Made by a program: the position numbers and the translations under genes. Below, piece by piece: positions 1 to 61,485 of a DNA stretch of 64,000 nucleotides (the stretch's first letter is position 1; each line of letters opens with the position of its first letter). The notes beneath the pieces are model-generated. The model searched no databases. It was not told the origin of the DNA and saw only the letters and a list, made by a program, of their open reading frames with translations. This DNA is from Tetradesmus obliquus. Taxonomy: Eukaryota; Chlorophyta; Chlorophyceae; Sphaeropleales; Scenedesmaceae. The DNA is taken from assembly GCA_030272155.1 (NCBI GenBank), contig CP126203.1:682001-746000 (forward strand), given 5' to 3'.

Positions 1-14
1 TGCTGCTGCTGCTG

Positions 15-490
15 CCAGGTTGTGGCCGCTGTGATGCCTGCCGAGCTGAAGGGCGACTTCTTCACGCTGTTTGAAGGGTCGGCTGCAACCCAATCATGAA
101 CTGAACTTCTCGTGCTGCTGCTGCTGCTGCTGCCAGGTTGTGGCGGCAGTTATGCCTGCGGAAATGAAGGGAGAGTTCTTCACGCGCTTCCTGAAGGGCC
201 GGCTGCAGCCGCTGGCCAACCACCACAGCGCCAACTTTGTGGTGCAGGCATGGATGGCAGCCTGCAGCACGCCCCAGCAGGTGAACACTGTTAAGAATGT
301 GTTTTTTGGGAGAACTGTGGTGTTGGCCTGTTTGACAGTGTGCAGCACACCAACACTGCTGCACGTTGCTCTGAGGGTGTAGGTTTGGGGTTTTGGGTAG
401 GGGTCATACAGCTGCAGCCGGTGGCCAACCACCACAGCGCTATATGTGTGGCCTGCTTGGATGGCAGCCTGCTCCACACCAGCACAGGTG
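15..490 (+). repeat. Partial copies flanking the first visible NOP9 exon
   Basis: Bases 15-85 repeat the acceptor and 5' half of exon 137-280, including the preceding CTG run, and then diverge. Bases about 405-490 repeat the 3' half of the same exon (LQPVANHHSA) with its donor. The intact copy lies between the two fragments. Confidence 0.8.
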
Positions 491-60300: not shown

Positions 60301-61485
60301 TGACACTGATAACAACCAAATGCCAAGGTGCAACACCATACATTCAAAGTATAACTGCTCCTTTCACAGGTAGTACATCCCACTCACCAGCAACAAGCTT
60401 GGTACGCTCCACAATCGACTGCTGGCGCCAACGTGCAGCCATGCGGTATGCAGCATACCGTTTGCCTGGGACGCCAGTTTTCTGCACACACAACAGCCAG
60501 ATGCTTCAATGCTGCATGCAGCCTCTGTACAACAGCCAGCACATCTGCAGCAGCCTCAGGCATGCTGCATATTCAGGTTTAACACAGGTGCAGCTGTTTC
60601 CTGAGTCCTTGATGTCATATGATGCTGCAGCTTTCAAGCAAGCTTGCAGGCTGGGGCTGGGGCTTGGATGTGTTGCAACTCGGCAATGCAAGTGCTGCGC
60701 ATACATTGAACAATCTGCTGTTGGGGTTTTATTTCCAACAGCACCTGCCTTCCCCTAGTAACACCAAGGATGTTGCTGCTACTGCAGCTGCTGCTGCTGT
60801 GTTGGTGCTGCTACCCCCGAGCTTTGACTGGGCTGCTTCCAAAGAGCGACCCTGCTGCTGCCGCTGCTGCTGCTTCTTTCAGCTTCTTCGTCTTCTGCTG
60901 CTGCTGTTGCTTTGTATGCTGCTTCTGCTTCTGCTGCTCCTTCTGCTTCTGCGGCTGCTTCATATGCTGCTGCTGCTGCTGCTCACTGACGCACTGGCGG
61001 CTTCAAACACTCACCAGGATATTGCCGCACGGCTGAACTCTGCCCTGAATCCTGGCGGTGGGCGCAAAACGCTGTACATCTGCAAGCATTGCGCTTGCAA
61101 GCACAGTGTTCAAGCCTGCGGGGGCTCTGGGGCAGTCAAAATCAGCCAGTGTGATTGCCAGCTGCACGTACCGCCAAGGTGGCCCGAAAATCTGAGCTGG
61201 ATCCACTGAGTCATTTGCAGCTGCAGGCTGGGCTTGCAGGATACCTCTGGCAGCACTGCTCAGCGGCACTGCTTCTGCTGCTGATGTGAGCATGTCATCA
61301 ATTGCTGAGTCAGCGTCTTCCACTGCTGACATCAGCTGTCTGTCATGTGCTGAGTCAGCATCTTTCACTGCTGACATCAGCATGCTGGCAGGGGCTTGCA
61401 GTACATCCCTGCTGGCGCTGCTCAGCTGTACTGCCAGCAGCAGGCATGCTGCTGCTGACAACAGGCTGAGGCCCTTACGCTGCAT
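48395..61485 (-). CDS. Secreted cysteine-rich repeat protein with (SP)n linker, putative wall/matrix protein (about 1,726 aa)
   Basis: Sixteen exons join in phase: 61015-61485, 60388-60481, 60020-60118, 59110-59179, 58448-58577, 57482-58221, 56704-56889, 55181-56022, 54604-54901, 53841-54231, 53388-53522, 52593-53092, 51905-52076, 50506-51312, 49034-49199 and 48395-48474. The start MQRKGLSLLSAAACLLLAVQ is a good signal peptide. Residues 30-245 form an unrecognised N-terminal region. Residues about 246-288 are a Ser-Pro linker of the type hydroxylated and glycosylated in algal wall proteins. The remainder has at least 20 units with a Cys about 10-20 residues before a CP..(F/Y)P-like motif (CPPDFPIG, CPTTFPFQ, CPADFPFR, CPNNFPIF, CPSNYAYS). 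There is no transmembrane segment. Extracellular matrix or wall placement is inferred. The 59110-59179 exon and the last exon are the least certain; a split into two genes near 58.6 kb cannot be excluded. Confidence 0.75.
49255..49362 (-). repeat. Pure (CAG)36 tract (CTG in sense) in an intron
   Basis: Thirty-six uninterrupted units make this the longest pure triplet tract in the window. It lies about 55 bp upstream (in transcription) of the acceptor of exon 49034-49199. Confidence 0.97.
49631..50302. mobile_element. Putative MITE-like insertion with ATCACCGGAA terminal repeats
   Basis: AATATCACCGGAAGCC-type motifs occur in direct orientation at 49631, 49671, 49714 (weaker), 50217 and 50262. 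The inverse, TTTTCCGGTGATAATT, is at 50290-50305, giving inverted ends and a hairpin of about 12 bp at the right edge. The roughly 670-bp block lies wholly in the intron between exons 50506-51312 and 49034-49199 of the secreted-protein gene. It differs in base composition from the flanks and carries no recognised transposase. No target-site duplication was proved. Confidence 0.45.
51330..51695. repeat. GTGTCATG minisatellite in an intron
   Basis: A variable array of GTGTCATG and GTCATG units over about 360 bp between exons 51905-52076 and 50506-51312. It keeps + frames open artificially. Confidence 0.92.
52218..52342. repeat. 17-bp tandem repeat GTTGATGACTCAGCACT in an intron
   Basis: About seven to eight imperfect units lie in the intron between exons 52593-53092 and 51905-52076. 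Confidence 0.9.
53275..53695 (-). repeat. Copies flanking exon 53388-53522 of the secreted-protein gene
   Basis: Bases about 53280-53330 repeat the exon end (LLGSNA-SI). Bases about 53640-53690 repeat a short piece near its start (TTCPFT). Each lies on the side predicted by its splice site. Confidence 0.7.
56030..56262 (-). repeat. Two CAG-linked upstream copies of exon 55181-56022 start
   Basis: CTGCAG-type acceptors plus PSQGSCGS-QIPQF recur at about 56070-56120 and 56163-56220, each led by CAG tracts on + (56024-56055, 56127-56149, 56221-56262). Confidence 0.9.
56930..57210 (-). repeat. Upstream copies of exon 56704-56889 start
   Basis: The GAGGAGACCTGCGGCACCAC acceptor region and adjoining exon sequence recur at about 56930-57000 and, more weakly, at 57110-57205. 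Confidence 0.75.
58445..58575 (-). repeat. Coding Ser-Pro dipeptide repeat
   Basis: About 20 near-consecutive Ser-Pro dipeptides, interrupted once by a VTT spacer, are coded by exon 58448-58577. Confidence 0.95.
58788..58864 (-). repeat. Upstream partial copy or alternative of the (SP)n exon
   Basis: An acceptor followed by SPSPSPDPGVSPSPSISPSP in the same phase as the intact exon, then TAA with no GT donor seen. If it were used it would truncate the protein, so it is read as a dead copy. Confidence 0.6.
59020..59072 (-). repeat. Downstream donor copy of exon 59110-59179
   Basis: The exon end (MRFS-DAG plus GTA donor) recurs once after the intact donor at 59109. Confidence 0.65.

Follow-up and report, generated by a model that had tools for sequence, protein, structure and literature searches.

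Partial local copies of exon ends in and beyond a 64-kb window of the Tetradesmus obliquus genome

In the genome of the green alga Tetradesmus obliquus, exon ends are accompanied by local, direct and partial copies of themselves, which are anchored at the exon end, occur in most of the sampled places, mostly retain their splice dinucleotides and decay with age. The whole stretch of DNA analysed here, referred to as the window, comprises 64 kb (C13:682001-746000) of a 104,662,953-bp genome in 17 contigs. The source genome is consistent with diploid Tetradesmus (Scenedesmus) obliquus UTEX 3031, and the accessible part of a published description lists GCA_030272155.1 with 104.70 Mb, 17 contigs and 56.5% GC (PMC12571836). 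The reading that we favour, with reserve, is that the copies would stem from recurrent, silent, local duplication across exon/intron junctions, many of them from a diverged allele; the first half of this reading, the recurrent silent duplication, is rated higher than the whole.

Partial exon copies in the window and elsewhere

Self-comparison of the window by BLAST at E<=1e-6, with CAG/CTG runs masked, yielded 86 pairs, 85 of which are direct and less than 3 kb apart, while the remaining one is a self-palindrome. With another search space, the window self-match gave 91 local pairs, 1 distant pair and 2 inverted ones, and first-order resampled sequences, used as a control for the window scan, produced no self-match pairs. 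The sole inverted self-match of the first scan is a 64-bp near-palindrome at 57329-57392 (78% over 72 columns).

Exon ends and arrays in the window were hand-curated, as was the list of copies, which contains 79 partial copies at 24 exons of six genes (Table 1). Exon-boundary duplication, which the initial annotation had described for at least 25 exons in six genes, is thereby borne out, and its range of one to seven copies per exon comes close to the 1 to 10 counted here. Exon starts are represented by 45 copies and exon ends by 28, six copies reach neither end and none is complete. Furthermore, the arrangement is strictly oriented, with all start copies lying upstream (45/45) and all end copies downstream (28/28). 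The identity of the exon part ranges from 0.73 to 0.98, in agreement with the earlier description of copies from nearly identical to decayed. Weaker matches beside exons 3698, 22707, 45553 and 53388, and on the donor side of exon 8578, were kept outside the 79, as was a partial copy past the stop codon of the NUDIX gene.

Gene models were obtained with a home-made finder trained on the DNA of the window and the stretches alone, with raised intron penalties; these models fuse some adjacent genes and read some copies as exons, and the splice sites were checked afterwards. Pfam supports the GH5 and NUDIX assignments as well as the PUF domain of the NOP9-like gene (E 1.3e-32, hand-trimmed peptide), and the mannanase peptide, from which presumed copies had been trimmed by hand, can be aligned to PDB 9m20 (residues 10-310 of 320, E 2.7e-63), whereas the RAP and DnaJ matches are weak and fall below the cut-offs. 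The intronless, CAG-rich gene of the window, which serves as an internal control, contains no array of at least 40 bp and a single 37-bp internal match.

Table 1. Exon-edge copies and the internal control in the window. Exons are named by their positions; "start" and "end" refer to the exon end that a copy carries.
Positions	Strand	Gene or exon	Copies and remarks
16-491	+	NOP9-like, exon 137-280	upstream start copy 16-90; downstream end copy 411-487
1296-2255	+	NOP9-like, exon 1296-1585	three downstream end copies: 1663-1726, 1830-1980, 2049-2113
2783-3392	+	NOP9-like, exon 3048-3169	two upstream start copies (CTG tract); one downstream end copy
5454-5980	-	predicted last exon 5923-6016 of long gene (putative gene end)	repeats; outside the 79
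6234-8113	-	exon 6234-7684	three start copies; smallest period 144; CAG tract
8449-8631	-	exon 8578-10993	end copy below the exon; outside the 79
10888-11734	-	exon 8578-10993, start	four upstream copies, three reaching exon start
11890-13393	-	exons 12099-12281 and 12871-13053	first: one end copy; second: two end, one start, one internal
13859-15957	-	exon 14416-14670	richest case: seven upstream copies (six reach exon start); three end copies below
16463-17209	-	exons 16175-16490 and 17164-22308	first: two start; second: two end
24337-25488	-	exons 24337-24700 and 25401-26076	first: three upstream, smallest period 149; second: one end
28205-29958	-	GH5 mannanase, exons 28205-28393 and 29524-29650	first: one start; second: two start, five end
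29980-31684	-	mannanase, exons 30381-30522 and 31342-31517	first: three start, three end; second: one each
31987-34254	-	mannanase, exons 31987-32124, 32818-32947 and 33893-34028	first: three start; second: five start, two end; third: two start, two end
35236-39107	+	intronless CAG-rich 3.9-kb gene (weak RAP match, below cut-off)	internal control
40913-41400	-	exon 40913-41039 (weak DnaJ match, below cut-off)	three upstream copies, two reaching exon start; CAG tracts
44465-45840	+	NUDIX, exons 44597-44722 and 45071-45232	first: one start; second: two start, one end
55978-57193	-	cysteine-rich predicted gene, exons 55181-56022 and 56704-56889	two upstream copies each

Beyond the window, 25 other 10-kb stretches were sampled (20 at fixed positions and 5 from a seeded random list, hence not a random sample), one of which consists entirely of N. 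Window and stretches together contain 273 local direct pairs as opposed to 6 distant and 15 inverted ones. A mobile element or introner was rejected as the source, the copies being overwhelmingly local in the window and the 10-kb stretches. Repeat coverage varies from 0 to about 50% per informative stretch, and 22 of the 29 predicted genes with at least three exons in the 24 stretches possess an exon+intron array. The initial claim that every intron-containing gene is affected thus holds in the window (6/6) but not elsewhere. Outside predicted exons, the stretches contain 75 copies, which obey the orientation rule in 26/26 and 32/33 cases; 12 of these 75 count as full copies when measured against predicted exons.

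A Pfam search for chaperonins, which is free of our own gene models, returned 98 matches, and at 6 of 11 loci these are partial and redundant; some of these six rest on one pair, while one of them, a gene on C16, has three copies of an exon start and several of exon ends. In the PGK gene on C13, each of the six array families lies at the end of an exon identified by the Pfam profile, and 11 copies occur in 5 of its 8 exons. Two of these copies match their exon without a single difference, over 33 and 53 bp respectively, which shows that the process, described earlier as continuing, has been active recently. Repeated, boundary-anchored duplication is therefore supported in the window as well as in the stretches and at the chaperonin and PGK genes. 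When a 95-base exon query was run against the whole genome, its own locus was the sole match among the best-scoring candidates.

An assembly artefact, for instance two haplotypes joined in tandem, would also place similar sequences side by side. The strain is reportedly diploid with significant heterozygosity and haplotype divergence, to go by the title of Biondi et al. 2024, and the synonymous differences between copies and exons look allelic. The title of the published assembly, on the other hand, describes it as gapless telomere-to-telomere, and up to ten copies per exon are found, in units far below the length of long reads. Two paralogous PGK regions on C9 (4540201-4544000 and 4556401-4560200) lie 16.2 kb apart, differ by 39 mismatches over 3,788 aligned bp with six small gaps, and share a local duplication spaced at 112 bp, which is counted here simply as a local duplication. 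Units of about 127 bp and a duplication common to both paralogues make an artefact unlikely, and we regard this explanation as hardly credible.

Junctions, unit length and repeat tracts

The window contains 39 arrays with a unit of at least 40 bp, namely 30 exon+intron, 4 exon+flank, 3 exon, 2 intron and 0 intergenic arrays, a count from which three intronic short-unit minisatellites and one 78-bp exonic repeat (22857-23092) are excluded. Minisatellites with 12-, 7- and 17-bp units lie in predicted introns at 12550-12848, 51330-51693 and 52217-52341, respectively, and a ATATCACCGG motif, noticed by eye, is repeated several times at about 49620-50300, outside gene models. In the 24 stretches, from which short-unit minisatellites were likewise removed before counting, 95 arrays comprise 64 exon+intron (42.6 under a null that shifts positions), 17 intergenic (18.8), 6 exon (7.3), 6 intron (22.7) and 2 exon+intergenic ones (3.7). 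Equal density away from junctions, which the initial annotation had named as evidence against its claim, was not found, since intron-only arrays account for 2/39 and 6/95, with a contrast that is partly a matter of detection.

The share of junction arrays among junction and intron arrays is 31/33 in the window (0.50 under the collapsed-copy null) and 64/70 in the stretches (0.41), although the collapsed-gene null sets whole arrays against single units and therefore makes the contrast look stronger than it is, a bias from which the shift null is free. Within this set, arrays with a pair of at least 90% identity include a junction in 13/13 cases in the window (P 0.027) and 29/30 in the stretches, and because copies of one exon are non-independent, simple p-values overstate. 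For single BLAST pairs the excess is mild (46/136 with a junction, null 31), because copy-copy pairs score as intron-intron, and arrays are the better unit. A tandem exonic copy inside an intron must cross the junction for geometric reasons, so that spanning follows of itself wherever exon sequence takes part, and the real question is the scarcity of intron-only arrays.

One answer to this question would be plain neutral tandem duplication everywhere, with exon ends visible only since constraint keeps their copies recognisable longer, a possible but on the whole unlikely explanation. It is favoured by the faster divergence of intron parts: in bracketed copy pairs these differ by 0.174 against 0.110 in exon parts, with 0.069 against 0.013 indels per bp, a comparison biased by the choice of exon parts by similarity, and weaker in contrast than the multiple alignment, which mixed non-homologous flanks. 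A point against the reading preferred here comes from 3 of 11 families, whose intron parts have not diverged further than their exon parts; among them is the second-largest family by aligned columns (28681-29315), with a divergence of 0.143 for the exon and 0.111 for the intron. Also in favour of neutral duplication, similarity can still be recognised in only 23 of 69 unmasked 70-bp intron flanks, and residual local similarity outside arrays (segments above the 99% control level) is present in all classes, with 5.3% in introns, 3.4% in intergenic DNA, 6.6% at junctions and 8.8% in exons. When the intron-only counts are tripled, however, ratios of 31:6 and 64:18 are left by our arithmetic, as compared to null shares of 0.50 and 0.41, and the young copies are too synonymous for neutrality from birth (see below). 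When five arrays located outside predicted exons were inspected by eye, two or three resembled missed exon ends. The quicker fading of similarity in introns exaggerates the junction bias, but perhaps does not account for all of it.

The unit of the exon+intron arrays has a median of 127 bp (middle half 114-158), with 0 of 91 below 80 bp, and the medians elsewhere are 126 bp for intron arrays (n=12) and 125 bp for intergenic ones (n=17), while 2 of 10 exon-only arrays have a unit of 60-80 bp. Units thus cluster near 125-130 bp whatever the context.

CAG/CTG tracts had been described as a frequent companion of the copies, which is true of the acceptor side, where 26 of 45 copies have a tract within 70 bp, but not of the donor side (3/28; 29/73 overall). 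Instability of these tracts as the driver of duplication, which the acceptor figure might suggest, is highly improbable and was rejected, given that the tract is absent from most donor-type copies. Furthermore, tracts are found at the acceptors of 14/24 exons with copies versus 9/21 without, and a pure 36-unit CAG tract outside the gene models (49255-49362) has no duplication array alongside.

Divergence of the copies and their possible origin

The way in which copies differ from their exons offers an insight into their history. In the window, copies and exons differ at codon positions 1, 2 and 3 by.095,.066 and.208. The third-position excess persists within the A, T, C and CpG classes, while for non-CpG G the third position hardly exceeds the first; base composition or CpG content was ruled out as its source, as the excess remains in most base classes. 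One 151-bp copy (1830-1980) of a NOP9-like exon (1296-1585) carries 13 synonymous changes and 1 nonsynonymous change. The omega-like ratio is 0.35 in the window and 0.32 in the stretches, where the latter takes in 75 of 158 copies, those outside other predicted exons. It rises with age, from 0.18 at 92% identity or more to 0.48 below 80% in the window, and from 0.14 for the 24 youngest (0.12 for four above 96%) to 0.64 for the oldest stretch copies. By our reasoning, copies that have been neutral since birth should give a ratio of about one half or more, because the exon and copy branches of an unconstrained copy are equally long. The PGK copies, with 11 synonymous and 11 nonsynonymous differences (omega 0.38), fit neutrality without allele capture, and the 83 stretch copies within other predicted exons (498 S, 850 N, omega 0.62) likewise fit neutral duplication everywhere and run counter to our best reading.

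Alternatively, the copies might be functional, as extra mini-exons or alternative splice sites under selection. In support of this, differences between copies are also coding-like (.105/.067/.182 at positions 1, 2 and 3 in the window), changes private to copies number 59/49/103 (those private to the exon 9/3/31), and splice dinucleotides are kept in 70 of 76 copies (AG 46/49, GT 24/27). In addition, a potato duplication was spliced, according to the accessible part of its description (PMC4974935), and in the NOP9-like gene the finder calls two additional mini-exons, each of 24 nt and in frame. The start copies of that gene (2783-3169) contain an internal GTGAGG that would permit such mini-exons, and they are candidates for use in RNA. 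Frame-breaking indels nevertheless dominate (35/45 in the window, where older copies account for most of them, and 27/33 in the stretches), which indicates that the copies are not maintained as protein code; in-frame stops occur in 13 of 79 window copies, the smallest period is not a multiple of three in 21 of 30 exon+intron window arrays, and omega climbs with age. A function for the copies is accordingly quite improbable, and they look as if they had been under constraint during one part of their history and released from it during the other. The synonymous bias fits a diverged-allele source in a diploid, and function fits it less well, because frames are broken and most smallest periods are not multiples of three.

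Intron sequence is part of many copies. An intron flank above the 95% control level of unrelated junctions is recognisable in 45 of 76 (30/48 acceptor, 15/28 donor), while 31 of 76 have no recognisable flank. A spliced mRNA template, i.e., a retrocopy, is thereby ruled out, and copying at the DNA level is indicated.

In the reading preferred here, a segment of about 127 bp that begins on one side of an exon/intron junction and ends on the other would be copied beside itself, probably by template switching or unequal exchange. This geometry would leave one complete exon and a truncated intronic copy, with start copies upstream and end copies downstream, and the event would be silent at any length or frame if the spliceosome picks the outer, complete exon, because the copy sits in the intron while the complete exon remains. 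Splicing presumably neglects the copies, each of which holds only one of the two exon-defining sites. Such silent events could persist, multiply and decay, whereas duplications inside exons would be purged by selection. The synonymous bias of the young copies suggests that many derive from a diverged allele and lost constraint only later. The mechanism offered predicts no preference for exon ends over intron interiors, and detection covers part of the observed one.

A more speculative extension, which we hold to be possible rather than probable, is that recombination between the two diverged haplotypes can engage solely at exons, where they are still alike, and is often terminated incorrectly at the exon edge, so that a fragment of the other allele ends up in the intron. 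Introns might then, equally tentatively, constitute a local archive of allelic exon edges, which would be born diverged at synonymous sites and decay afterwards.

Significance and comparison with known systems

If the pattern is general, part of the intron sequence of this lineage would be built from neighbouring exon edges, gene prediction would be misled, and splicing would have to ignore many candidate splice sites. The copies would then also represent a natural experiment on how the spliceosome distinguishes a complete exon from half an exon. Moreover, if they come from the other haplotype, they would offer a view onto the recombination of diverged haplotypes in a diploid alga.

Pseudoexons and splicing decoys are intronic exon-like sequences with splice signals, which owe their existence to chance, to transposons or to a regulatory role; unlike these, the copies in the alga derive from the adjacent exon. 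A literature search covering titles and abstracts, with subscription papers including the genome paper outside its scope, found none on dense exon-edge copies in Tetradesmus, Scenedesmus or other algae, and the accessible parts of PMC7955037 and PMC12571836 do not mention them. Haematococcus lacustris, also a green alga with many tandem repeats, has short interspersed repeats arranged in tandem, with no tie to exon ends in the accessible text (PMC7617258). Exonize catalogues tandem exon duplications, and its cases resemble ours in being within-gene copies, some of which are unannotated or degenerate in introns; its headline counts, as far as the accessible text goes, refer to full-exon duplications (PMC12343006), which are not what the window contains, as 0 of its 79 copies are complete.

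The closest relative is the potato RdRp gene, in which, according to the accessible part of the paper, a single tandem duplication across an intron-exon boundary, associated with intron gain, brought splicing signals along (PMC4974935). Both features of this type recur in the alga, where a segment from both sides of the junction is seen in 45/76 copies and an adjacent copy in the same direction in 85/86 pairs. The potato case, as described there, is one event with a new spliced intron (PMC4974935), whereas the alga has many exons with up to ten truncated copies, seen in DNA alone. The initial annotation knew of no described system with boundary-centred duplication at this density; the geometry is in fact known from this one potato case, and it is the density for which we found no counterpart in print.
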